Positions 47,795-60,008 of a stretch of 64,000 bases of DNA are shown one piece after another. Every line of letters begins with the position of its first letter. Within the stretch, counting starts at the first letter, position 1. A program made the position numbers and the translations under genes. The stretch is from Robiginitomaculum sp. (GTDB lineage: Bacteria; Pseudomonadota; Alphaproteobacteria; Caulobacterales; Maricaulaceae): assembly GCA_021776515.1 (NCBI GenBank), contig JAJFFS010000011.1:124001-188000 (forward strand). Direction: 5' to 3'. A model generated the notes under the pieces. That model saw only the letters and a program-made list of their open reading frames with translations. It did not search any database and was not told the origin of the DNA.

Positions 47795-49861
47795 ATGCGC
47801 AAACTCAGTCTGTTTTTCACCCTTATGGTGCTTCTGCTTGGCGGGGCCATGGCGGCGGCAGCCTTTTTAATTCCACCAGACTTTTACAAACAAAAAATCG
47901 AAGAACAGGCCAGCGCCATGCTGGGGCGACAATTGCGTATTGAAGGGCCGGTATCTCTACGGCTCTGGCCCACATTACAGGCACAAGCAGAAACGGTGAC
48001 ATTGGCTAACCCGCCAGGTTTTTCCAAATCCGATTTCGCCAGCATGAAGGCCATGCGCACCAGCATTGCCATAATACCGCTTTTCTCTCGTCAGGTGGAA
48101 ATCAAGGAGTTTGTTCTGGTTGAGCCCAGAATTGTGCTGGAAAGACGACGCGATGGTGCTGTTAACTGGGCTATCGGCAGCTCGTCCCAGGCCAAGGCCC
48201 GCGCCGGAGCCAATACGGGTTTTGCCCGGGAACCCGGGGCTTTGCCGCTGGAGGCTTCATTAGGCGAAATTCGTCTGATCGATGGTGATATTCAAATCAT
48301 CGACCATACCAAAGGCAACAAGCACCATCTGGCAAACGTCAATATAGATCTGAACATGCCAGCGCTGGACGCGCCAATGAAAGCCGGTGGTACGCTGAAA
48401 CTGAACGGTACGGATTATAAAATCAAGGCGACACTTGGTGGATTAAAGCAGTTTCTGGAAGGCAGAAAAACGGCCTTAGTACTAAGTCTGGAAAACACAT
48501 TGTTTAGCATCACGTTTGATGGTGCCTTTGACAAAAGTGCAAAAATCGCGGCTACCGGGGATTTGCAACTGCGTGTTCCTTCTGTGCGGGCTTTGGCCAT
48601 TTCTGCAGGAACAGTATTGGCGGAAGCTCCAGGCACATTTGGTGCCTTTAACGTATCAGGAACAGCAAGGGCTGATGCAAAACGGCTGTCATTCAAAAAT
48701 GCAGAATTAAGTCTGGATGACCTCACGGGAAAAGGCAGTTTCGAGGCCGCCCTTACCAGTACACGACCAAAACTGACCGGCGATCTCACCATTGACCGTC
48801 TGGACCTGACGCCCTACCTGCCGCCACCTGCCCCGCGTGGACAGGGTATTGCGCCCTGGAGTACAGCCACTTTCAATCTTGACATGCTCAAAGCCGTAGA
48901 TTCGCACTTCACCCTTGCTCTGGGTGCCTTGCAAGCCCGTGAAATTAAAATTGGCAAAAGCGTATTAAAAACCGCATTGGTTAACGGTCGTTTGCAAGCA
49001 GACTTAACTGAAATGGCGCTCTATGGCGGGTCCGGTACGGGCAAAGTGGTGGTTAATGCCAGTGGTGCCACACCATCTTTTTCACTGGCATCCAATATTA
49101 CCGGGGTCGAGTTTCTGCCATTGCTGACCGATGGCATCAAATTCAAGCGCCTGGCGGGCAAAGGGGCGACACAATTTGCATTGTTAGGTGCTGGCCATTC
49201 TGCGGACGAGGTTATGCACTCCCTTTCCGGCACGGGCAATTTGCACCTCAAAGACGGTCAGATTATTGGTATTAACCTCGCTTCGGTATTGCGCAGCGCA
49301 CAGAGCTTTATCCTCAGTGGTGCCCTGCCCGCCAATGCTAATGAACCCGAGGTCACTGATTTTTCTGACCTGATGGCAAGCTTTACCGTTGCGGATGGTA
49401 TAGCCCAGACCGATGACTTTCTCATGTTGGCTCCGGTACTGCGCGTTCCGGGCGAAGGTACGCTTGATATAGGCGAACAGATGGTCGACTTTCGCCTCAC
49501 CCCGCGCGCCGTTGCCTCTCTGGAAGGTCAGGGCGGCGTGGCTGACCTTGTTGGCATCAAGGCACCTTTTCGTATTCATGGGCCATGGAGCGCTATAAAG
49601 GCAGGCCTTGATACCAAACTTCTGAAGAAAAAAGCCAAAAAGAAAATCAAGAAAGGTGTCGGCAAACTCATTGATAAAAACCTTGGTGGCGATAGCGGCT
49701 CTGCGCTCAAATCCCTCTTTGGCGTACCCGATACCCCCCCCGAAGACACTGACTCCGCCGGTGAGGAAACACCCCGGGAAAAAACCGATGAGGAACTGGC
49801 GGTGGATGCCTTTAAAGGTCTGTTCAAAAAGAAGAAAAAGAAAAGACCTGCGGATGAATGA
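47795..49861 (+). CDS. AsmA-family envelope protein
   Basis: A 688-residue AsmA-type protein with one N-terminal membrane helix (LFFTLMVLLLGGAMAAAAFLI) and long beta-rich repeats. Typical parts: RQLRIEGPVSLRLWPTLQAQAETVTLANPPGFS near the start, and the C-terminal AsmA-2 segment LSGTGNLHLKDGQIIGINLASVLRSA followed by a Lys-rich tail (FKKKKKKRPADE). These proteins are thought to bridge inner and outer membranes for lipid transport. No adjacent partners. Confidence 0.9.
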   Translation: MRKLSLFFTLMVLLLGGAMAAAAFLIPPDFYKQKIEEQASAMLGRQLRIEGPVSLRLWPTLQAQAETVTLANPPGFSKSDFASMKAMRTSIAIIPLFSRQVEIKEFVLVEPRIVLERRRDGAVNWAIGSSSQAKARAGANTGFAREPGALPLEASLGEIRLIDGDIQIIDHTKGNKHHLANVNIDLNMPALDAPMKAGGTLKLNGTDYKIKATLGGLKQFLEGRKTALVLSLENTLFSITFDGAFDKSAKIAATGDLQLRVPSVRALAISAGTVLAEAPGTFGAFNVSGTARADAKRLSFKNAELSLDDLTGKGSFEAALTSTRPKLTGDLTIDRLDLTPYLPPPAPRGQGIAPWSTATFNLDMLKAVDSHFTLALGALQAREIKIGKSVLKTALVNGRLQADLTEMALYGGSGTGKVVVNASGATPSFSLASNITGVEFLPLLTDGIKFKRLAGKGATQFALLGAGHSADEVMHSLSGTGNLHLKDGQIIGINLASVLRSAQSFILSGALPANANEPEVTDFSDLMASFTVADGIAQTDDFLMLAPVLRVPGEGTLDIGEQMVDFRLTPRAVASLEGQGGVADLVGIKAPFRIHGPWSAIKAGLDTKLLKKKAKKKIKKGVGKLIDKNLGGDSGSALKSLFGVPDTPPEDTDSAGEETPREKTDEELAVDAFKGLFKKKKKKRPADE

Positions 49862-49873
49862 GTGCTTAAAATT

Positions 49874-50194
49874 CTAATCCAATGACGGTATAGGCATATC
49901 GGGTTCTGCAATATCGGTGTTCAGTTGCAATCGTCCATCAAGGATATAGACGATGTAAAGGGCGTCATTTTGCCCCATATAATAAATATTGTAGCGACCC
50001 TCATAGACCAACCGGTACAGACCTTTTTCTTCGTTAAAGAGAGTTCCAATTTCTGGGTATTGGGCAAGACTGTCAAAAATAAAGACTGCTATCTTATGCT
50101 GGAACTCGTCAGCATAATCATGGCTGTAATCGGCATGATATCTATATATCTGCCAAAGATTTTCTTCAGCATTTTCAGTGATATGGATTTTCAT
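49874..50194 (-). CDS. RelE/ParE-family toxin
   Basis: A 106-residue toxin of the RelE/ParE superfamily: KIHITENAEENLWQIYRYHADYS, FDSLAQYPEIGTLFNEEKGLYRLVYEGRYNIYYMGQNDALYIVYILDGR. The YxxxY and Arg residues match the ParE branch. The ATG overlaps the antitoxin stop by one base, so the two form one operon with the antitoxin first. Confidence 0.88.
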   Translation of the reverse strand: MKIHITENAEENLWQIYRYHADYSHDYADEFQHKIAVFIFDSLAQYPEIGTLFNEEKGLYRLVYEGRYNIYYMGQNDALYIVYILDGRLQLNTDIAEPDMPIPSLD

Positions 50195-50469
50195 CAGCTA
50201 TTTTGTAATTGCCTCTTGAAACGGGCCGCCAATTGATCCGCATATTTTGGTGTAAATTCACTGAACCGGCCCGCGCCAATATCGGCTAACCCCTTACTGA
50301 CCCCGACCTCGGTTTGCATTTGCAGCAAGGCTTCTGCATCTTGAATTGACATAGTCACCGCTACGGGGCGATTTTTCTTGGTGACAAGCACCGGCTCTCT
50401 TTGAACCGTATCAAGAAAACGTCCAAATTCCTTGCTGGCTTTCGCGGCGGGTATGGTTTTCATCATCAT
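50194..50469 (-). CDS. Phd/YefM-family antitoxin
   Basis: A 91-residue antitoxin: IPAAKASKEFGRFLDTVQREPVLVTKKNRPVAVTMSIQDAEALL is the Phd/YefM DNA-binding N-terminus, and the C-terminal tail (ADQLAARFKRQLQNS) would wrap the toxin. It precedes the toxin and should repress the operon. Start may be residue 3 (50463). Confidence 0.88.
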   Translation of the reverse strand: MMMKTIPAAKASKEFGRFLDTVQREPVLVTKKNRPVAVTMSIQDAEALLQMQTEVGVSKGLADIGAGRFSEFTPKYADQLAARFKRQLQNS

Positions 50470-50524
50470 ATTTCCATATTATCTAATCGTTCTATTATAC
50501 GGATAATGGGGAAAATAGCAAATT

Positions 50525-51316
50525 CTATGTTATGGGAGAAACTCCCAATGCGATCTTATATTTTTTATTACATGTATCGCAAATAAATTCGTTTCCGGGT
50601 GTTATTAAGTGATTGCCGACGTACTCCACAGTTTTACAATCTTCATTTGGACAGGTTATTTTCTGCGTATGTGGCTCCCATTCACATTTACCATCACCAA
50701 TGTCTGTTAGACGATACGATTGATGGCAATGTGGACATTGCGTATCTCTAGGTTTTCCATCTTTTTTCAATCGCCGGGTTAAAGATTCCCCACACTCACA
50801 TTTCATTGTAGAAGTATTTCCCATGTTGATATTCCATGCCGTGGACGAAAGAATTTTTTCAATACCGCCAATCAATTCATTACATCTCCGGCGAATTTTT
50901 TCCTCGTCTTGCTGCCTGTCTGATTTTATTTGCCTGAGCGTCGGCAAATGGAGAAACGAGCCGAGTGCGTGATAGTGCTTTTTTATGACTTCAAGGGATA
51001 TTGGCGTTTCAGTTCCAATTTCACGGAACACTTCCGGGGTTTTCCCTAATGCTGGCTCTCTTCCATATGATAGCGTTGATGGTCTCCCAGCATAAGGATC
51101 AATCTCAAGAATTTCGGCCATAATCTTACGAGGCTGCCAAGTGTCAATTATTGATAAAGGCATGTCATCTTGATATTTGTCTGCGAGATCATACGTTAGC
51201 GCTTCAACACTCATTCTTAAAGAAAGAGCACCGTATTTTGCATTCACTAAACCAGGGTTTGAAAGAGACGCCTTTGCATTTTCCAAATTTTGTTTGGCTT
51301 CATGTCTGTATTTCAT
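50525..51316 (-). CDS. Hypothetical protein with several zinc ribbons
   Basis: A 263-residue protein. The N-terminal helices (KQNLENAKASLSNPGLVNAKYGALSLRMSVEALTYDLADKY) resemble DUF4145-like domains that often stand next to nucleases in defence genes. From about residue 165 there are four Cys pairs: CECGESL, CPHCHQS, CPNEDC and CDTCNKK, so two zinc ribbons. AT-richer than the neighbours; lies between the toxin-antitoxin pair and the broken copA. Function unknown; defence-related is speculation. Confidence 0.7.
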   Translation of the reverse strand: MKYRHEAKQNLENAKASLSNPGLVNAKYGALSLRMSVEALTYDLADKYQDDMPLSIIDTWQPRKIMAEILEIDPYAGRPSTLSYGREPALGKTPEVFREIGTETPISLEVIKKHYHALGSFLHLPTLRQIKSDRQQDEEKIRRRCNELIGGIEKILSSTAWNINMGNTSTMKCECGESLTRRLKKDGKPRDTQCPHCHQSYRLTDIGDGKCEWEPHTQKITCPNEDCKTVEYVGNHLITPGNEFICDTCNKKYKIALGVSPIT

Positions 51317-51331
51317 TCCAGATACCCCTAC

Positions 51332-52423
51332 TCACTCAACCACCAACCTTACCCGGCGCAAGCGCAAGGCATTTGTGATGACCGAAACCGAGCTGAGACT
51401 CATGGCGGCGGCGGCGATCATGGGCGATAGCAATAACCCAAACACCGGATATAGAACGCCAGCGGCAATGGGTACACCCAGGGCATTATAAACGAAGGCG
51501 AAAAACAGGTTTTGCCTGATATTTTTCATGGTAGCCTCGGCAAGACGGCGTGCGCGATGAATGCCGCGCAAATCACCGCTAAGAAGGGTTATGCCAGCGC
51601 TTTGCACCGCGACATCAGCCCCCGTTCCCATGGCAATACCAACATCGGCCTGAGCCAATGCGGGGGAATCATTCACCCCGTCCCCGGCCATCGCCACCCT
51701 GTGCCCTTGTGCTTGCAAGCGTTTAACCAGATCGGCCTTGTCCTCGGGCATGACGCCGGCGCGAACCTCATCAATGCCCAGTTTATCGGCAACGGCTTGT
51801 GCGGTACGCGCATGATCGCCGGTAGCCATAATAATTCTCAAACCCTCTTTGTGCAGCGCACGGATAGCTCCTTGCGTGCTTTCTTTAATAGGGTCGGCCA
51901 CTACCAAAAGGCCCGCCAGTTCGCCGTCCACCGCCACGTACATAACTGTTGAACCCTGCGCCCGTAAGGTGTCTGCTTCTTGCAGGGATGCAGCTTCGTT
52001 TGCGCCAGCCTCTTCCATCATTTTTATATTACCCAGCGCCAACAGACGACCATCAACTACGCCGCTCACCCCCTTGCCTGTATGCGAGCGGAAATTTTCT
52101 GCCTTTGACAATTTTAAACCGCGATGGGCCGCTGCCCCCACAATGGCCTCGGCCAGCGGATGCGCACTGCCGTGTTCCAGTGCAGCGGCAAGAGATAAAA
52201 TGTCATCTTCAGCGATGGCACCCACCGTGATGATGCCGGTCAGTTTCGGTTTGCCTTCGGTTAGCGTACCGGTTTTATCCACCACCAGCGTGTCAACTTT
52301 GGCAAAAAGCTCCAGTGCCTCGGCATTTTTAATCAGAACGCCCGCCTGGGCACCACGCCCGGTGGCCACCATGATGGAAATTGGCGTGGCCAAACCAAGG
52401 GCGCAGGGACAGGCAATAATCAG
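51332..52423 (-). pseudogene. copA: copA 3' fragment (copper P-type ATPase)
   Basis: The C-terminal part of a copper-exporting P1B-ATPase, cut by the transposon at 52424. It starts at [17 protein letters not shown], holding the Cys-Pro-Cys ion site of helix 6, and contains the phosphorylation loop [31 protein letters not shown] and the hinge [22 protein letters not shown]. It ends with the last two helices. Removing the transposon and one duplicate target site joins it in frame with the 5' fragment. In its present state it has no start of its own except a spurious frame through the transposon end (52459). Non-functional. Confidence 0.92.
52416..52423. repeat. 8 bp target-site duplication, left copy
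   Basis: ATAATCAG, repeated exactly at 57064-57071 on the other side of the transposon. 8 bp duplications are normal for the IS1595 family. Confidence 0.95.
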
Positions 52424-52448
52424 CGGACTTATGTAGCATCCGCACCAA
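52424..52448. repeat. Left terminal inverted repeat
   Basis: Reads CGGACTTATGTAGCA, then TCC and GCACCAA. It matches the complement of the right end at 22 of 25 positions. Confidence 0.95.
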
Positions 52449-52480
52449 CACAATAACACCGGGGTGTGCTACAACAAGAT

Positions 52481-52864
52481 ATGGGAAATATTTACGTTAT
52501 ATCGGGGCTTGTGAGAAAGCGGGGTGAGTTAGCCTATGCGGTTATGGGCCGGGAAATGGCATTACAAGCGGCCAAGCGCGACCTTGAGAGTGTGGACAGG
52601 GCGCTGGTGCTGTTTGGGTATCAGGATGATCCCAATGCCATAGGGCCAATCAGGACACCCAAGCGTATCTTTGCCCATAAGGAACTGTCCCGCCTCATTA
52701 TCCAAATACGGCGCGATAAACCAGAATTAGCCGATAACCCCGCACTGGCGCGTGAAATCATCGCCCGCAAAGGCTGGGATACCCAAGACCGCGACCTCTA
52801 TAACCAAATCCGCAACAAGGTGAAGGACGTGACAAAGAGACGATGTTCAATCAAAGGAAATTGA
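52481..52864 (+). CDS. Transposon passenger, small helical protein
   Basis: A 127-residue basic helical protein (GLVRKRGELAYAVMGREMALQAAKRDLESVDRALVLF). The pattern resembles short helical-hairpin proteins often annotated as hypothetical near IS elements and in plasmids. The ATG at 52481 begins 57 bp inside the transposon. Function unknown. Confidence 0.7.
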   Translation: MGNIYVISGLVRKRGELAYAVMGREMALQAAKRDLESVDRALVLFGYQDDPNAIGPIRTPKRIFAHKELSRLIIQIRRDKPELADNPALAREIIARKGWDTQDRDLYNQIRNKVKDVTKRRCSIKGN

Positions 52865-52875
52865 AAGTGCCAAAC

Positions 52876-53163
52876 TCAAAATTCCACCTCAAGATCGATA
52901 TAAAAACCGCTCTTTCCTATCCTGACAGACTGAGTGCTGGATATAGGCCTTTTTTTGCCAATGAGATCGAATTTAACAAATTCATCCATTTCGTTCGTAA
53001 ATACTTTCGAGACGCACTCTTGGAGAACAGAGTCAAAATCTTTGATTGTGTATTCATTCCCACAGAGCGTGCAGATGATTGTGACCTTACCGTCACCATT
53101 AACGAAGGCTTTGCTGCGAGTGTTGCACAGGCTGCAAAAGATTTTATCGGTATCAGAACTCAT
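52876..53163 (-). CDS. Transposon passenger, small zinc-ribbon protein A
   Basis: A 95-residue protein with CSLC and CTLC knuckles 17 residues apart (KIFCSLCNTRSKAF, TIICTLCGNEY), a zinc ribbon. It is related to the 86-residue protein at 54865 (KLFCSFCDTQ and TIICPSCGGE), which indicates a duplicated family inside the element. AAGG lies about 8 nt before the ATG. An antisense frame (52843-53166) is less likely. Role unknown; nucleic-acid binding is plausible. Confidence 0.65.
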   Translation of the reverse strand: MSSDTDKIFCSLCNTRSKAFVNGDGKVTIICTLCGNEYTIKDFDSVLQECVSKVFTNEMDEFVKFDLIGKKRPISSTQSVRIGKSGFYIDLEVEF

Positions 53164-53268
53164 TAGACGAGCCTTTCAAAAAGGCTGGAATGAGTTGCGT
53201 TGTCTAAATTCCTATGCCATAGGATTCAGACGGACATACGCTGCTCTATTCCAGCAGTTACGTTTTGG

Positions 53269-53297
53269 GCCGGGTCGCTATAACGACCCGGCTCTTT
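53269..53297 (+). terminator. Strong hairpin, possible terminator
   Basis: GCCGGGTCG and CGACCCGGC form a perfect 9 bp stem with a 6-nt loop, followed by TCTTTT on the plus strand. It lies between the zinc-ribbon gene and the transposase stop and would end plus-strand transcripts. Confidence 0.55.
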
Positions 53298-53348
53298 TCA
53301 TGTGGAATAGAAGTTCTCAAGAGTCCAGCCCGTTTTAGCGATTCAATT

Positions 53349-54314
53349 TCAAGCCGCCGCCCTCTGCCAATACCCGCCAAACTTGTTGCTTTTAGGCGCT
53401 GCAAGCGCAGCCCTGACAATCCGCTTGGCAAGTCCGCCCGTGCCTTCTTTGCGGTGATCTTCCAGCCATGCGGCATGTTCGGCATACTGGTGCAGGTATT
53501 TAGGACTAACCCAATGGTGCTGACCCGCAACCATCTTACGAAGGCGTGAGAAATAACTTTCAACCCAATTTGTGTGAACGCCGTTGCCAAGGGAGTATTC
53601 GGTGCTGTGATTAACCCGCTTGGTATCGTAACCCCAAGCCAGAGCGTCCCAGTGAGAGGCTTCGTCGGCAAAGATTGTGGTGCCGTCCTGCACAATGCCG
53701 TGCGCCAAGGCAACGCCCTCTGCTTCGCTCTTGCGCACAAAAGGTAATGTGCGGCCCATACGTTCACGCATCGCGATCACAACGCGGCGTGTGCCGGTCT
53801 GGTGATGCTTCAAGCGGCGGTCAATGCGGTCTGACTTATAGTTTGAAGGCCGGATATGTCCGCCAAAGTAAGCACCGTCTATTTCCACTTCACCGTCAAG
53901 TTTGTGCGTATCTGTTTCATCGGCCAGACATTCACGCATCTTGTGACAAAGCACCCATGCGGTCTTGTACTGCACATCAAGGGTGCGGCTAAACTGAACC
54001 GCGCTCATACCCTTGGAGCCGGTCACAAAGATGCAGATGGCGGCCAGCAAGTCCGTGAAGTCCAGCTTACGGCTATGCAGGATTGTGCCACTGGTGACGC
54101 TGTACTGGTGCAAGCAAGCCCGGCATTTGAATTTCTGACGTGTGCTTATGTCATAGCTTTCATAGCAACCGCATTTCGGACACACGGCTTCGCCATCCGT
54201 ATCGCTCCACCTGATTTTGCGAAACATGTCATAGGCCGCTTCCTCACCCATCTTGTAAATTGCTTTCAGGGAAAGCGTCCGGGCCTTTGCGCTTAATAGA
54301 AAATGTTGTGCCAT
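53349..54314 (-). CDS. IS1595-family transposase (ISXO2-like)
   Basis: A 321-residue transposase. An N-terminal zinc ribbon (CPKCGCYESY and CRACLHQYS) is followed by SVTSGTILHSRKL and a DDE domain: VEIDGAYFGG (first Asp), FADEASHWDALAWG (second Asp region) and THTNWVESYFSRLRKMVAGQHHWVS-like text with the conserved Asn and Glu (53530-53570). This is the ISXO2-like/IS1595 pattern. The ATG at 54314 follows GGAGG 7 nt upstream. A frame reaching 54347 also exists. It faces away from the DUF6471 gene. Confidence 0.92.
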   Translation of the reverse strand: MAQHFLLSAKARTLSLKAIYKMGEEAAYDMFRKIRWSDTDGEAVCPKCGCYESYDISTRQKFKCRACLHQYSVTSGTILHSRKLDFTDLLAAICIFVTGSKGMSAVQFSRTLDVQYKTAWVLCHKMRECLADETDTHKLDGEVEIDGAYFGGHIRPSNYKSDRIDRRLKHHQTGTRRVVIAMRERMGRTLPFVRKSEAEGVALAHGIVQDGTTIFADEASHWDALAWGYDTKRVNHSTEYSLGNGVHTNWVESYFSRLRKMVAGQHHWVSPKYLHQYAEHAAWLEDHRKEGTGGLAKRIVRAALAAPKSNKFGGYWQRAAA

Positions 54315-54353
54315 TGCACTACCTCCGTTGCATTGTGCAACAAACATAGTGCA
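54315..54353. promoter_or_regulatory. Nested inverted repeat at transposase start
   Basis: TGCACTA at 54315-54321 and TAGTGCA at 54347-54353 enclose GTTGC/GCAAC (54327-54341). It overlaps the transposase ribosome-binding site and lies in the divergent gap to the DUF6471 gene. A candidate operator. Confidence 0.35.
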
Positions 54354-54419
54354 TTATTTCATTCTTTACAAGGGTAATTGCAACGACTATGATAGAAAAA
54401 ACACTATAAAGGTTGCAAA

Positions 54420-54641
54420 ATGTCAAACGAACAAAGCTACGAAACCCGCATCGCCCAGATACTAAAGGGCGAGATTAAACGCGCAGGGCTGACCTATGCG
54501 TCCCTTACGGAGAAATTAAACCAAATGGGGATAGACGAAAAAGAGGTGAATGTACGCAACAAAATAGGACGCGGAAAGTTCAGCGCCGCCTTCATGATGC
54601 AATGCCTTGAGGCCATCGGGTTAAGGGATTTAAGGCTTTAG
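54420..54641 (+). CDS. DUF6471 protein
   Basis: A 73-residue protein matching the DUF6471 pattern: YETRIAQILKGEIKRAGLTYASLTEKLNQMGIDEKEVNVRNKIGRGKFSAAFMMQCLEAIG. The helical arrangement looks like a small helix-turn-helix DNA-binding protein. AAGG precedes the ATG. Divergent from the transposase, so it may regulate transposition; this is inference. Confidence 0.75.
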   Translation: MSNEQSYETRIAQILKGEIKRAGLTYASLTEKLNQMGIDEKEVNVRNKIGRGKFSAAFMMQCLEAIGLRDLRL

Positions 54642-54719
54642 AGAATTAAGGCCATTTACCCGGATTCAGGACTCGACTCAGCGCCCATTCTATATCACAT
54701 GCAATGTATTGATAAAATT

Positions 54720-54749
54720 GGCCCCCAGGAATTCTAGTTCCTGGGGGCC
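54720..54749 (-). terminator. 12 bp perfect hairpin, likely minus-strand terminator
   Basis: GGCCCCCAGGAA pairs with TTCCTGGGGGCC around a 6-nt loop; on the minus strand it is followed by AATTTTATC. It would end a transcript from the lipoprotein gene (55144-55791). Confidence 0.6.
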
Positions 54750-54864
54750 GGTATCCACACCATAGTTCAACCTATGTGGATAAGCGATATACGCAGGCTC
54801 TAAGTGCCACTATACCGCCTCACAATCAAGTTGGTTGGACGTTTCATTACGAAAGGCCAGTTCA

Positions 54865-55125
54865 ATGGGTAACCGTCAACAAACGCACAAGCTCTTTTGT
54901 AGTTTCTGTGATACGCAAGCGGAAGGAGTCCTTGATCCTCACACCGATAGTACAATTATCTGCCCGTCCTGTGGGGGTGAAGGAAAATTCAAGACTGTTA
55001 TGGAAGCCATCCACACTCAAGCGGGCAATCATCATATTGACAAAGAGCTTAATGACCTCGACTTCCTCAAGGGAAAGCGTCGCCGCCGCATTCGTCAAAA
55101 GGGCACCTTTTATCTCAAGTTCTGA
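54865..55125 (+). CDS. Transposon passenger, small zinc-ribbon protein B
   Basis: An 86-residue protein with CSFC and CPSC knuckles (KLFCSFCDTQAEG, TIICPSCGGEGKF) and a basic segment (LKGKRRRRIRQKG) near the C-terminus. Related to the protein at 52876. GAAAGG lies 8 nt before the ATG at 54865. An antisense frame overlaps (54862-55137), but the conserved Cys pattern favours this strand. Confidence 0.6.
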   Translation: MGNRQQTHKLFCSFCDTQAEGVLDPHTDSTIICPSCGGEGKFKTVMEAIHTQAGNHHIDKELNDLDFLKGKRRRRIRQKGTFYLKF

Positions 55126-55143
55126 TTGATCTGCCATAGGCAG

Positions 55144-55791
55144 CTAGTAGCCCGTGGTTTCTTTTTCATCAATAGCAGCGAGGAACCCCTTGATGTATGA
55201 TTGCGGTATTTCAACAATCATACTGTTTCCCTTACCGACTACCTTGACTGCAAAAATCTGCCTTTCTGATATTTCTCTAAGTTGGTCCATTGTCATATCA
55301 ATGCCGACGATTTCTTTTTTGTAGCATCCGCCACCATAACCAAGGCAACTCACGTCACTGTCAATTTTCTTAAACCTCAACCTTTCACCGGCACTATACG
55401 CGGCGTTGTAGAACGGCCAATCTCCCATTGAAGTTTGCTCAATCCGCAATTGAACATCAGAAAAATTGACTATGTTGGCACCAGAACGCCCTGCATCAAC
55501 TCCAATGAGATTGTATATATTATACCCATCCAACCATTTGTTTCTTTCTGGATCACGGTATTTGATTTGCGGCCCTTTGGCTGATCTGCCTCCAATGTGG
55601 GGATGATGCAGAAATTCAACGTTGCTTTTTACAACATCAAAATCTGTGCCTTTTGATTTTCTGGTTTTATTGGCTTTTGTTGGTGTGATTTTTTCGACTT
55701 GCCGAACGGTTTCCGGTGTCGAAACATCTGTTGCGCACCCTGTAATTACCAGCATTGCGGTTACGGCTAAAGTTGTGGCAATAATTCTCAT
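55144..55791 (-). CDS. Transposon passenger lipoprotein
   Basis: A 215-residue protein with a lipobox (AMLVITGC, Cys19) and no recognised domain. After a Lys/Thr-rich spacer come beta-strand-like stretches (GANIVNFSDVQLRIEQTSMGDWPFYNAAYSAGERLRFKKIDSDV) and CLGYGGGCYKK with two cysteines. A stable hairpin at 54720 probably ends its transcript. Function unknown. Confidence 0.75.
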   Translation of the reverse strand: MRIIATTLAVTAMLVITGCATDVSTPETVRQVEKITPTKANKTRKSKGTDFDVVKSNVEFLHHPHIGGRSAKGPQIKYRDPERNKWLDGYNIYNLIGVDAGRSGANIVNFSDVQLRIEQTSMGDWPFYNAAYSAGERLRFKKIDSDVSCLGYGGGCYKKEIVGIDMTMDQLREISERQIFAVKVVGKGNSMIVEIPQSYIKGFLAAIDEKETTGY

Positions 55792-55845
55792 TGCGCTTCC
55801 CCTATATTTCGATCACATTTTGCCCGACGTTGGCATCGGGCCATT

Positions 55846-55970
55846 GCAATCTCACATAGGGTGCGAAACCCTGCCTATTCACCGGGTCGGGGTAATTAGT
55901 CCCTACCTTAATCGGCTATCATATTTAGCAGGTAACCCGACATAACGGGACACCCTATGTTTGAGATTGC
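55846..55970. repeat. 125 bp inverted-repeat module
   Basis: GCAATCTCACATAGGGTG at 55846-55863 is repeated in inverted form at 55951-55970 with only a two-base insertion; 87 bp lie between. The interior has its own partial dyads (CGGGTCGGGG and GTAACCCG). It sits in the 257 bp gap between the lipoprotein and membrane-protein genes. No flanking duplication is evident. Confidence 0.7.
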
Positions 55971-56048
55971 CTTGCTGGACTAATGGAGATGTGGCGGGGA
56001 GTCAACGGAAACGCTGGACTCTGACGCGCTGGCTTGCGAAGGTTTTGG

Positions 56049-57032
56049 ATGGAATGGATGAAACTAAACTACCCGCCTGTTGTTATAATAATAATTATGG
56101 TCGCAATTTTATTTGGCCACATTCAATATTTGTATGGGTATGGCGAAGGCGAGGCCGATTGCGCCGCCAATCAAAATGCAGATCAAGCCAACAGTGCAAT
56201 CCAACAGCTTTCTGATATTGGCGCTCCTAGAGTTGTCAAAATTATAGAAGGCAGACCCCAAAAGAACACCGCCACCGGCGATAAGAGCAGCGCCTATAAA
56301 CATGGCAAAATAACTTTGCAAGAACGGGACCACCTCGCTCAACTTGATATGGCGAGTGCCGCCAAATTCGGAATTGTTCTCACCATTTTTGGCGTCCTGC
56401 TGCTTGGGTTTACTCTCAAATATACCCGTGATGCTGCCATTGCCACCAACAAAACTCTGAACGAAGCCAAGAACGCTACTAAGGCGGCTTGGGCGGCTGT
56501 TGATGTCACTAGAGAAATTGGTCAAAAACAGGTGAAGTCCTATCTCGCCCCCGAAAATGGGGAGTGGGTATGCACAATGAGAAACGTGTTTGCTCAAATT
56601 CATTTGAAAAACAATGGGCAATCTCCATGCATTCACGGGCAAGCTAAAATGCAAATGGTATGTTTCATACCGGTCAGAAATTCCCCGAAAAACAAGGCCA
56701 CTTATGAAAGCCCTTGGGCTACCGCCGGATTTGGCACCATTGAGCCTAAAGGGACAACGCCTCTCCTGTTTGATTGGAGTGATGAGGTCTTTGACAAAAC
56801 TTGGTTGCATAAAATTGCGGCCAAAGAGGCTGAAATTCTTGTTTATATCTGGATCAAATCCGAAGATGTTTTTGGGAATATCGACACGCAGGTATTTGGC
56901 AGCACTCGCGTCAAACTTAACGGTGCTCTGGGAGGTGCTTTCAAAGACACCGTCTATGGCGAAAAGCTGCATATAACAAACAATTATCAAGGGAAAGCTA
57001 TTGAACACGCTCAAAACCCCTTTGATGAATAA
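56049..57032 (+). CDS. Transposon passenger membrane protein
   Basis: A 327-residue protein with two hydrophobic helices (PVVIIIIMVAILFGHIQYLYG near residues 9-28 and FGIVLTIFGVLLLGFTLKYT near 106-125), a helical coil with many Ala/Asn/Lys, then a beta-rich C-terminal domain (WVCTMRNVFAQIHLKNNGQSPCIHGQAKMQMVCFIPV) typical of phage and island hypothetical proteins. AAGG precedes the ATG at 56049; 56058 is also possible. Function unknown. Confidence 0.75.
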   Translation: MEWMKLNYPPVVIIIIMVAILFGHIQYLYGYGEGEADCAANQNADQANSAIQQLSDIGAPRVVKIIEGRPQKNTATGDKSSAYKHGKITLQERDHLAQLDMASAAKFGIVLTIFGVLLLGFTLKYTRDAAIATNKTLNEAKNATKAAWAAVDVTREIGQKQVKSYLAPENGEWVCTMRNVFAQIHLKNNGQSPCIHGQAKMQMVCFIPVRNSPKNKATYESPWATAGFGTIEPKGTTPLLFDWSDEVFDKTWLHKIAAKEAEILVYIWIKSEDVFGNIDTQVFGSTRVKLNGALGGAFKDTVYGEKLHITNNYQGKAIEHAQNPFDE

Positions 57033-57038
57033 GGGGGC

Positions 57039-57063
57039 TTGGTGCTTCTGCTACATAAGTCCG
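57039..57063. repeat. Right terminal inverted repeat
   Basis: Complement of the left end, ending TGCTACATAAGTCCG at 57063. Confidence 0.95.
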
Positions 57064-57071
57064 ATAATCAG
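57064..57071. repeat. 8 bp target-site duplication, right copy
   Basis: ATAATCAG, identical to 52416-52423. Confidence 0.95.
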
Positions 57072-58238
57072 CACTGAAACCGCCGCGATCAGACCATAGG
57101 CCATAGGCGGGTTTGGCCCCCAGACCGACCAGATTATAAAAGCAACCGCTGCACTGGCCACCACGGCAGGTACAAAAACACCCGACACAGCATCAGCAAG
57201 TTTTTGAATGGGCGCACGAGAGCGCTGGGCATCGGCCACCATAGCAACGATCTGCGCCAACATAGTCTTGGCCCCTACCCGGGTAGCGCGAAAAACAAAA
57301 CTGCCCGTGCCGTTGATGGTACCGCCGGTAACGGGATCACCCGGTTTCTTTTCTGCTGGCAACGGCTCGCCGGTCAACAGGGATTCGTCAACTTGCGAAG
57401 CTCCCTCAACAACCTCCCCATCGACGGGGATTTTATCCCCGGGGCGTATGCGTAAAAGGTCGCCGCCGTGAACTTGCGACAGCGGAACATCCTCCTCCGT
57501 ACCATCCTCATGAACAATGCGCGCCATTTTTGGTGCCAGATCCAGAAGCGCCCGGATAGCGCCGCCCGTGCGCTCGCGGGCGCGCAACTCAAGAACCTGG
57601 CCCAATAACACCAGCACAATAATGGTCGCCGCAGCCTCGAAATAAACCGCAACACTTCCGTCCTCGGTACGAAAAGCCTCCGGGAAAGTACCCGGCGTAA
57701 TCGTCGCCATGGCGCTATAGACATAGGCGGCACCGGTACCCATGGCGATGAGTGTGAACATGTTGGGATTTCTGCTGAGTATTGACTGCCAGCCCCGAAC
57801 AAAAAATGGCCAGCCGCACCACAGCACCACTGGCGTTGCCATGATCAGTTCAACAAATTTGGATAAACGCGGCGGCAACCAGTTCTCCACCGGCAAGCCC
57901 ACCATTGGCCCCATGGAAAGCACCATCAGGGGAGTGGCAAGAACAAGTCCCAGCCAAAACCGGTGGGTAAAGTCAATCAGCTCAGGATTGGGGCCGCTTT
58001 CGGCGAGGTGAACGTCTTTGGGTTCCAGCGCCATGCCGCAAATAGGGCAATTGCCCGGGCCAACCTGCTCAATCTGCGGATGCATGGGGCAAGTGTAAAT
58101 GGCATTTTCATCTATAGGGTGGGTAGGTGTTTTGGCGGCGTCATGATTATGGTGACAGGCATGAGATGGTGTTTCACCATGGCCAGAGCCATTTTCCACC
58201 TGTTCAGAAGAAGAATGATCGTGGCTTTTATGTGCCAT
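57064..58238 (-). pseudogene. copA: copA 5' fragment (copper P-type ATPase)
   Basis: The N-terminal part of the copper ATPase, starting at ATG 58238. A His-rich leader ([19 protein letters not shown]) precedes a heavy-metal-binding [26 protein letters not shown] domain, six helices and the actuator domain with SLLTGEPLP. It stops three codons into the transposon end (GLM then stop at 57051), just before the CPC ion site. Joined to the 3' fragment without the transposon and one target copy, the gene has 2,259 bases, in frame. In this state it cannot transport metal. Confidence 0.92.
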
Positions 58239-58327
58239 GGCTGTTTCTAATAGAAATAGCTGCAAACAGGCGCGGGAAGGGATCAAGGCCGTTCACCATT
58301 AAAAAAGGTAGCCTATGAACAGTTTTA

Positions 58328-58693
58328 CTATTGATGTTCGGCTTCTCCCTGGGCTTTGTCTGGCCCGCCGTGCTTCATTTTTGTATGCATCATGTCATGG
58401 CATTTTTTATGCCTTTCACTCATGCCTTCGCCAGATTTCATTTTTTCTTTCATGGCAGCCATATCCATCCCGCCATTTTCCATTTTTTTGTGCATCTTGG
58501 CCATCATGCCCTTGCACTTTTGCGGCATGCTTTTCATTTTCTCAGACATAGCCTTATGTTTTTCCTGCTCCATCATCATGGATGGTTTCTCTTCTGAAGT
58601 GGCTGCAGGAGCTTCTGTTTGCGTTGTGACGCAAGCGCTCAAGGCAACGGCCCCTGCTGTCACGACGGCTATACGAGCAAAATTAATGGCCAT
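58328..58693 (-). CDS. Met/His/Lys-rich lipoprotein, probably copper-binding
   Basis: A 121-residue protein with a lipobox (AVALSAC, Cys21) and then a stretch with many Met, Lys, His and Cys (MMMEQEKHKAMSEKMK, KCKGMMAKMHKKM, KKCHDMMHTKM). Such composition binds Cu(I) in the periplasm in other proteins. It lies 90 bp upstream of copA on the same strand, so it is probably part of a copper-handling operon. An AGGAAC site precedes the ATG. The opposite-strand frames are shadows of its composition. Confidence 0.75.
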   Translation of the reverse strand: MAINFARIAVVTAGAVALSACVTTQTEAPAATSEEKPSMMMEQEKHKAMSEKMKSMPQKCKGMMAKMHKKMENGGMDMAAMKEKMKSGEGMSERHKKCHDMMHTKMKHGGPDKAQGEAEHQ

Positions 58694-58778
58694 TTTATGT
58701 TCCTAGAATTTTCACCATTATGCATGAGCACATTGCGAACGGCAATTGATTTAGGCGGGCAAGGCAAAATGGGGGGCG

Positions 58779-60008
58779 CTAATGGGTCAGACGAACAGAG
58801 CCAGGCGTGCGCGGCAACACTTCGGGAAAGCCTGCCGCTTCGTGGTCTACGCTTAACTTCATTTCACCATTGCCACTAAAAATAATACTATCCGCAATCA
58901 ATGCCATAACCGGCGAAACAGCCCCAAATCCACCACCGCCGGTAATGTCCAGAATTTGTGTAGGAAAATACAAGGTGCCGGTGATTTGCACATCGCCACC
59001 ACCAATAATTGTATTGCTGTGCTGTGGATTAGAGTCCGGGTGCTGAACGAAAACAAGCCCGGAATAAACCCCTTCACCAGGTGCGCTGAAATTAACACCA
59101 GATTGTGCCTGAATATTCAATCCCGTATCAGCACCATAAAAATAGAACGTCACATCATTGCCAATGGCCGTTGACTGGGCAAGCAGGGAAAGCTCACCGC
59201 CCTTAATAACATATAATCCAGGGTTAAAGCTCACATCGGCATCGGCCTGCAGGCTTAACCCCCCACAATAAATACCCGGGTCAGCGGTGAATATGCCATT
59301 TTTAAACTGGATATTGGTATAATCACATCCCGCCACATCCGGCACTGGCAAGTTGGCATAAGGGTCTTCAACTGGCGCACAATTGCCCGATGGTTCAGGC
59401 GAGAACCCATTGCCTGAATAACCGCCAACCGCGCAAAAATCAGAGGCTTCGGCATCAGCTGTCCCCTTTGTGGTCAGGGCCTGTGCATGGCTGGAATTGG
59501 AATGCACAGCACATCCCTCAGCCAGTAGCGAAGATGAGCCAGAGAGTAAAATCGCATCCTTTTTTGTTGAATTAAGGGCTAACATGCAAAAAATTTGTCC
59601 CGGCAGGTTTTCCGCGCTCGCTGTGGTTGTCACCGGGATGCTGTGAAAATTTTCCATCAGGGCAAAAGTAGCGGGAACGGCGGCGGTCATGGAAACACTA
59701 ACCGTATCGCCAGAAAAAACGGTGTTGGCCTGCCCAACCAAATCGGCACCATAACTGCCGGCACGCCAGTTTGCCGTTAGCATATCACTGACCAGTTGCT
59801 CCCGTTCAATCGACGGTGAATCAATATTTATCGCACCGGCCAATGCCGCTGAGTCTACTGCGCTTTGCAAGTTTGAGCGCACATTGGAAGCCCGGTGGAG
59901 GTCAAACCCAACACCAAGAGTCAAGGTAAAGGGGACCAGCACCAAAGTGAAAAAGATGGCGGCATTACCACGGTCATTTTTACAGAACCGGTCTAGTATT
60001 TTTCGCAT
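58779..60008 (-). CDS. TadG-like pilus/Flp assembly protein
   Basis: A 409-residue protein with the TadE/TadG-type start: FCKNDRGNAAIFFTLVLVPFTLTLGVGFDLHRASNVRSNLQSAVDSAALAGA (membrane helix near residues 15-35). The rest is a large extracytoplasmic domain with Ser/Gly-rich beta repeats. The ATG at 60008 follows AGGAG, so the longer open frame (60053) is not used. No other tad genes are in the window, so it may be a stand-alone pseudopilin-like adhesin. Confidence 0.85.
   Translation of the reverse strand: MRKILDRFCKNDRGNAAIFFTLVLVPFTLTLGVGFDLHRASNVRSNLQSAVDSAALAGAINIDSPSIEREQLVSDMLTANWRAGSYGADLVGQANTVFSGDTVSVSMTAAVPATFALMENFHSIPVTTTASAENLPGQIFCMLALNSTKKDAILLSGSSSLLAEGCAVHSNSSHAQALTTKGTADAEASDFCAVGGYSGNGFSPEPSGNCAPVEDPYANLPVPDVAGCDYTNIQFKNGIFTADPGIYCGGLSLQADADVSFNPGLYVIKGGELSLLAQSTAIGNDVTFYFYGADTGLNIQAQSGVNFSAPGEGVYSGLVFVQHPDSNPQHSNTIIGGGDVQITGTLYFPTQILDITGGGGFGAVSPVMALIADSIIFSGNGEMKLSVDHEAAGFPEVLPRTPGSVRLTH

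Follow-up and report, generated by a model that had tools for sequence, protein, structure and literature searches.

The 64,000-nucleotide stretch of Robiginitomaculum sp. DNA analyzed here (positions 124,001 to 188,000 of contig JAJFFS010000011.1, assembly GCA_021776515.1; hereafter the window) carries a 4,640-bp transposable element at 52424-57063, inside the copper ATPase gene copA, with terminal inverted repeats and a target-site duplication at both ends. The insertion is real and in itself is a routine gene disruption. We consider it fairly likely (probability of about 0.7) that it was made by a tIS of the IS1595 family, i.e., an insertion sequence (IS) whose single pair of ends also encloses genes other than the transposase, in which a small DUF6471 protein (PF20075) represses the transposase, and that the operators of this repressor diverged together with it from element to element.

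According to this reading, a transposon with passenger genes would have entered an intact copA through DDE transposition of the ordinary kind, with duplication of 8 bp. The transposase and DUF6471 genes would be transcribed away from each other out of a shared regulatory stretch of ~105 bp, and the DUF6471 protein would act as an XRE-like dimeric repressor on palindromic operators overlapping the transposase promoter, controlling its own promoter as well through an upstream operator copy. Such repression would hold transposition at a low level and may silence newly arriving copies that bear the same operator, while operators and recognition helix would have diverged together among elements. 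To a broader proposal we give even odds: that DUF6471 proteins are transposase repressors setting immunity groups among IS1595 transposons through an arms race of helix and operator, between elements whose transposases are ~90% identical. In this proposal, the innermost operator pair is read by residue 46 (R or K for C:G, A or T for other pairs).

A proposed regulatory stretch shared by transposase and DUF6471

The transposase gene (53349-54314, minus strand; start placed at a conserved MAQHF, the mechanical open reading frame (ORF) extending to 54347) codes for a zinc ribbon followed by a DDE domain (PF12762, E = 1.2e-37; PF12760, E = 1.1e-13; NF033547, 156.6 bits for a cut-off of 75). The gene of the proposed repressor, 73 aa in length, lies at 54420-54641 on the plus strand, and the two diverge across the shared stretch. 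Relatives of the transposase were found at 15 loci of the public genome set, and 22 bounded elements were assembled from the window, 11 elements found by transposase search and 10 of 15 regions picked for the joint presence of DUF6471 and transposase. The regulatory comparisons rest on 17 of these regions, which exclude L030, L031 and L037, devoid of DUF6471, and L102 and L103, initially unparsed and used later. The gap between the two genes measures 83-126 bp in 16 of the 17 elements and 241 bp in L100.

On the minus strand of the window element, the best-scoring -35/-10 pair (TTGTAA, 17 bp, TATGTT; 54343-54371) is the proposed transposase promoter. Downstream of its -10 box lies a palindrome, GTTGC-ACAAT-GCAAC (54327-54341), the proposed operator O2, and upstream is O1 (54380-54396), an operator-like 17-bp copy that is weak here (59% identity to O2). 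A best-scoring pair with a spacing of 16-18 bp precedes the transposase in 16 of the 17 elements (L094 has no TTG anchor), and a palindrome directly follows the -10, its arms differing from one element to another (GTTGC, GATAC, GATGT, GTTAC, AGTGC and others). Across six aligned pairs in the 17 elements, 88 of 102 are Watson-Crick, vs. 58.5 ± 4.1 when the arms are re-dealt among elements (0 of 10,000 draws as high); with partner arms slid as a control, pairing falls to 8 to 24 of 89-102 pairs. Pairing persists when the set is culled at 70% transposase identity (50/60; 0 of 10,000) and at 65%, which leaves six elements (29/36; 55 of 10,000). O1 and O2 are more alike within elements than between them (0.716 vs. 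0.574; 0 of 10,000), and this excess is kept after culling to ten elements (10 of 10,000). A test for repeated hexamers was significant in none of the 17 elements. Operator-like palindromes are thus present at the proposed transposase promoter, as an XRE-type repressor would demand, and binding to them is predicted.

The DUF6471 protein itself is predicted to adopt an XRE/HipB-like fold. Its model (pLDDT 89) has four helices, and its top Protein Data Bank (PDB) matches are HipB and restriction-controller proteins of the C.Esp1396I type, with probabilities up to 1.00 and TM-scores mostly of 0.63-0.71. XRE/HipB and restriction-controller proteins act on palindromic operators at promoters. Although the predicted fold of DUF6471 is like theirs, identity in the top matches is ~12-24%, and the partner gene is a transposase rather than a toxin or a restriction enzyme.

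If DUF6471 reads these palindromes, the two should vary together, and several comparisons are consistent with this. Among elements, the distance between operators shows no relation to that between transposases (r = 0.05). It is weakly correlated with the distance of DUF6471 helix 2, turn and helix 3 (partial r of 0.20-0.34; 45, 30 and 28 of 2000 permutations, respectively) and not that of helix 1 or helix 4 (700 and 415 of 2000); since five region tests were made, this relation is suggestive only. In the congeneric trio of the window element, L024 and L094, transposases are 87-92% identical, DUF6471 proteins 66-74%, and operator arms differ at 4-6 of 12 bases. Within the recognition helix (helix 3), an R or K at residue 46 goes with C:G as the innermost operator pair in 11 of 11 elements, and an A or T in 0 of 6. 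This rule was fixed as a prediction before further genomes were fetched. Of 29 further loci (27 new ones plus L102 and L103, previously unused), 16 were usable, 11 having no transposase in reach and two, L147 and L149, remaining unparsed; C:G was found in eight of nine loci with R or K and in none of four with A, although one of these four, L103, is not truly alignable.

The most serious competitor, which we nonetheless regard as unlikely, is a plain IS1595 insertion in which DUF6471 is a mere passenger and the palindrome is either incidental or an mRNA hairpin tuning translation of the transposase. Passenger genes are indeed known on IS1595 elements such as tISCpe8 and MTnSag1 (PMC5704250), and the palindrome sits near the ribosome-binding site within the predicted leader, where it could act as an RNA hairpin. 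However, DUF6471 retains its position, divergent orientation and spacing in elements that differ widely and whose other passengers vary, and its recognition-helix residues track the palindrome arms. A leader hairpin, for its part, needs no upstream copy such as O1, which the promoter-side site resembles.

Besides the possible hairpin, several observations weigh against the repressor reading. Concerning the protein, the Foldseek E-values of the fold matches are above 0.1, and the match to HTH_37 is sub-threshold (E = 0.094). Concerning the DNA, the promoter calls are simply the top-scoring pairs, with no shuffled control for comparison; only four of the 17 palindromes taken singly fall below 0.05, that of the window element standing at 0.08, and in several elements the best palindrome sits away from the operator position. 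Pairing is also lower in the 16 further elements (71/92). The window's own O1 is weak (0.59), L104 shows none (0.29), and one of three shifted O1 controls (+10) came out weakly above chance (0.260 vs. 0.237; 117 of 3000), the other two giving nothing. Concerning their covariation, the link with residue 46 was found post hoc in the first 17 elements, and among the further loci, three proteins with N at this position include one with C:G where none was predicted, so that the part of the prediction dealing with other residues failed for that protein. An unplanned scan placed residue 23 above residue 46 by z (7.1 vs. 6.1) and slightly below it by mutual information (0.61 vs. 0.63). Finally, the sequences are related, and the tests do not fully remove shared ancestry.

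Gene content and distribution of the element family

All 22 bounded elements encode the transposase, as a fragment in L037, and 19 encode DUF6471, including nine of the 12 formed by the window element and the 11 found by transposase alone (the exceptions being L030, L031 and L037). In L030, the same slot encodes a protein that barely exceeds the HTH_3 cut-off (23.2 vs. 23 bits). Of the 22 elements, 19 lie between identical 8-bp duplications, most having been picked by that criterion; L033, L101 and L102 have none. Left out of the count were L095 (same locus as L024), L105-L108 (ends not accepted), L025, L027 and L034 (contig stopping before one end) and L038 (a transposase fragment).

At the end beyond the transposase, the window element carries a 132-aa ORF of no known family (the tail ORF; 52466-52864, plus strand), which is predicted to be all-helical; its helices are modeled with confidence, and the PDB search of the fold gave no meaningful match. 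BLASTP-linked ORFs occupy the same end in 21 of the 22 elements, the copy in L031, on the other strand, being doubtful. Four further ORFs of the window element are passengers: one of 95 aa (52876-53163, minus strand) that is CxxC zinc-ribbon-like with sub-threshold matches only, one of 96 aa (54835-55125, plus strand), likewise zinc-ribbon-like and sub-threshold, one of 215 aa (55144-55791, minus strand) with an N-terminus that looks lipoprotein-like by eye, and one of 332 aa (56034-57032, plus strand) that appears membrane-anchored by eye. The 215-aa ORF matches a PHROG family of unknown function (E = 2.9e-9), and a weak homologue adjoins another DUF6471 gene in a congener (G016:C40). The 332-aa ORF has divergent homologues in eight other elements, so that its membrane-protein family is present in nine of the 22; a tenth sequence aligned with this family, from L026, has no BLAST similarity to it.

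Apart from DUF6471 and the tail ORF, passengers vary among elements. Among 20 ORFs scanned (19 passengers and the L030 slot ORF), 12 have no match at E = 0.01. L030 has a passenger with a resolvase-type helix-turn-helix, and L035 one with a SocA/Panacea antitoxin domain (L035:5050-5586; E = 6e-11), which adjoins a 95-aa ORF without Pfam match. In L037 (2441-8605), matching ends and a duplication enclose a truncated transposase, an IS66 transposase domain and a gene that is N6-methylase-like. A defence role for the passengers was considered and dropped, as no PADLOC match below E = 0.01 was found among the element proteins scanned.

This gene content bears on classification. The IS1595 family, which comprises the ISPna2, ISH4, IS1016, IS1595, ISSod11, ISNwi and ISNha5 groups, is described in PMC8101967 as usually having a single transposase gene. 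The window element shares with the family as described there a zinc-ribbon plus DDE_Tnp_IS1595 transposase, 8-bp duplications and terminal inverted repeats. Unlike those elements, it has about six further ORFs inside its ends. Because the source description says "usually," an element with extra ORFs can be filed within the family, and non-transposase genes do lie between one pair of IS ends; by its predicted gene content, the element belongs with the tIS of the IS1595 family and is not a plain IS. In this it resembles tISCpe8 and tISSag10/MTnSag1, mobilizable elements known from Clostridium perfringens and Streptococcus agalactiae, respectively, in which passenger genes lie inside one pair of IS1595-type ends; no linked DUF6471 gene is mentioned for them in the accessible portions of PMC5704250.

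DUF6471 was detected in 27 of 149 relatives, in 25 of 385 genomes of the class and in none of 14 control genomes, the first two counts both including the genome of the window. Among those 149 relatives, 62 have IS1595 transposases. A transposase lies within 1.5 kb of DUF6471 at 16 of the 25 loci listed from 32 matches. Read by eye, a further broken copy in G016 (L165) has both a DUF6471 with the recognition helix of the window protein, NVRNKIGRG, and a palindrome with the arms of the window element, GTTGC/GCAAC. At L111 (L053:143-1324), DUF6471 lies near, and divergent from, a weak match to an IS1 transposase (E = 0.002, below the cut-off), and DUF6471 may on this ground serve IS1-like elements as well.

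Nine DUF6471 loci without an IS1595 transposase were examined as candidate transposase-free mobile cassettes. None has more than one end repeat (two of the nine have one) and none gave a tblastn match to the transposase or the tail ORF, for which reason most are read as deletion remnants and the cassette idea was rejected. In four of them (L112, L114, L115 and L116), DUF6471 adjoins a homologue of the 332-aa protein; these too keep a single end repeat at best and give no match to the transposase. These four are probably deletion remnants too; alternatively, they represent a pair with a life of its own. They also lend support to a second competitor, to which we give little credence: that DUF6471 works with the membrane protein as a pair, toxin-antitoxin-like or defensive, which stabilizes the element, promoter control being secondary. 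The 332-aa family gives a tblastn match beside DUF6471 at four of the nine transposase-less loci, with more by eye, and HipB antitoxins are among the closest folds. However, the DUF6471 alignments at these four loci start only at residue 15-32, and two of the four keep one end repeat, both of which fit deletion remnants. Moreover, the membrane protein is present in fewer than half of the bounded elements (9/22), and the PADLOC result given above offers nothing for a defence role.

The insertion in copA and copper handling by the host

The 8-bp target-site duplication ATAATCAG is found at 52416-52423 and, perfectly matched, at 57064-57071. The terminal inverted repeats that it encloses (52424-52448, plus strand; 57039-57063, minus strand) are similar to the ends of the 21 other bounded elements. 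They match at 22 of 25 positions (15 identical, three different, seven identical), their sequence being CGGACTTATGTAGCA(TCC/GAA)GCACCAA in inverted orientation, and a repeat search extended the arms to 30 nt at 83%. Among 726 candidates in a scan of 48001-60000 for 8-bp duplications with inverted ends, the pair bounding the element scored 14/14 and 21/24, far above the runner-up (10/14 and 12/24). The first-pass annotation, which had named an IS1595-family transposon at 52424-57063 with a 22/25 end match and a perfect flanking duplication, agrees with the transposase domains, the ends and the duplication, all of which were reproduced. The further copies that it proposed to look for were sought in the genome, and nothing beyond 37 bp at 87% was found; the element is single-copy. 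At blastn sensitivity, its DNA has no match in the plasmid collection, the phage and E. coli collections not having been searched. That the element was wrongly joined into copA during assembly is hardly credible, for although the junctions are known from the assembly, the duplication is perfect, the inverted ends are complete, and a single-copy element in the interior of a 257-kb contig (C3; assembly of 2.57 Mb in 21 contigs, 99.85% complete) argues against a repeat-driven mis-join.

On the minus strand, copA is split into a 5′ part (57072-58238), with the heavy-metal-binding domain (HMBD) and the actuator domain, and a 3′ part (51332-52414), which runs from the CPC motif to the C-terminus, both delimited by domain matches and by alignment with congeners. 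The 5′ part holds the HMBD and most of the E1-E2 ATPase domain, the 3′ part the remainder and the HAD domain; HMBD, E1-E2 ATPase, CPC motif and HAD were all found across the two separately searched pieces and identify CopA, while the pieces taken separately fall short of the full-length score cut-offs of copper-specific models. Joining the 120-nt flanks minus one duplicate gives a single open frame through copA, which from the ATG at 58238 spans 752 codons by arithmetic on the ORF coordinates. As the first-pass annotation had it, removing 52416-57063 restores a continuous 752-codon P-type ATPase, here also matched by congeners, and both halves are open, with no internal stop. The break falls immediately before the CPC metal-binding motif, so that a working pump made from the pieces is unlikely; the ATPase is almost certainly inactive, judging from its sequence. 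The 3′ half is in frame with a GTG inside the left end of the element, forming a 375-aa ORF (52459 to 51332, minus strand). An outward promoter driving this half was rejected as a candidate, the vicinity of the left end having no minus-strand candidate and the region seven promoters vs. 6.2 when shuffled.

Of 17 further genomes searched in the genus, 10 have an uninterrupted copA, at 69-80% identity across the N-terminal query; among the remaining seven, one gene is split by contig ends, one is at 58%, and five genomes have only distant ATPases or none. The empty site sought in relatives is thereby present in protein terms: over 18 residues at the insertion point, the rejoined CopA is identical to all 10 congeneric proteins. 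At otherwise invariant columns the window copA has 18 changes (11 in its N-terminal part, seven in its C-terminal part) and the ten intact copies 0-14. Its N-terminal part has the lowest nearest-relative identity of 11 (77.1%); for its C-terminal part the value is 80.4%, L126 and L127 being lower at 79.9%. Since the window copA is among the most divergent sequences, the count of changes is neutral as a test for relaxed selection on the pieces, neither showing nor excluding decay; a recent insertion is plausible. Searches of the literature for disruption of copA by insertion sequences found none.

Directly upstream of copA, a small Met/His-rich protein is encoded at 58328-58693 (minus strand), as it is at the same place in nine of the 10 congeners; it has a lipoprotein-like start and may bind copper in the periplasm. 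None of six other genes flanking copA in the window has a match in the 10 congeneric copA regions, so synteny beyond the Met/His-rich gene is not conserved. Downstream of the end of copA, two overlapping small ORFs (49874-50194 and 50194-50469, minus strand) resemble, on visual inspection, a toxin of the ParE/RelE kind and an antitoxin of the Phd type, and gave no PADLOC match at E = 1.

The first-pass annotation had considered that the host could have a second exporter or be copper-sensitive. By the searches made, the genome encodes one other P1B-ATPase, which follows ccoN/O/P-like and fixG/fixH-like genes (named by eye) in a cbb3-oxidase cluster; it looks FixI/CcoI-like rather than like a second CopA or a spare exporter, which speaks against the former suggestion. 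A Cu-oxidase_3 protein was not detected in the host genome, vs. detection in 8 of 14 controls, and four RND pumps were found. On these grounds copper sensitivity of the host is possible, and the insertion leaves the organism without a detected CopA-type exporter.

Known systems and implications for the family

IS1 and IS1595 are reportedly called related in the title of a 2009 paper by Siguier et al. The closest parallel to the proposed circuit is IS1, whose element-encoded DNA-binding protein InsA is known to repress the transposase promoter, the role proposed here for DUF6471. Unlike InsA, which is described in PMC12428005 as sharing its DNA-binding part with the transposase and binding the terminal repeats, DUF6471 is encoded by a separate, XRE-like gene, and its proposed operators are internal. 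This IS1/InsA work was all that a literature search for IS1595 with a divergent helix-turn-helix repressor returned, and searches for XRE-family transposase repressors of insertion sequences found none. The name DUF6471 is not mentioned in the literature searched. The accessible portions of PMC8101967, PMC12561309, PMC12428005, PMC7371123, PMC12888890, PMC5704250 and PMC7986276 make no mention of IS1595 elements with a linked, separate repressor gene; an earlier description in Siguier et al. (2009) is possible.

The wider value of the repressor reading is that it offers a domain of unknown function a role that can be tested. If it is true, copies sharing an operator should silence one another, those that differ in operator should not, element-specific operators would explain a self-limited copy number, and the helix and operator pairs of these transposons would amount to a small protein-DNA code.

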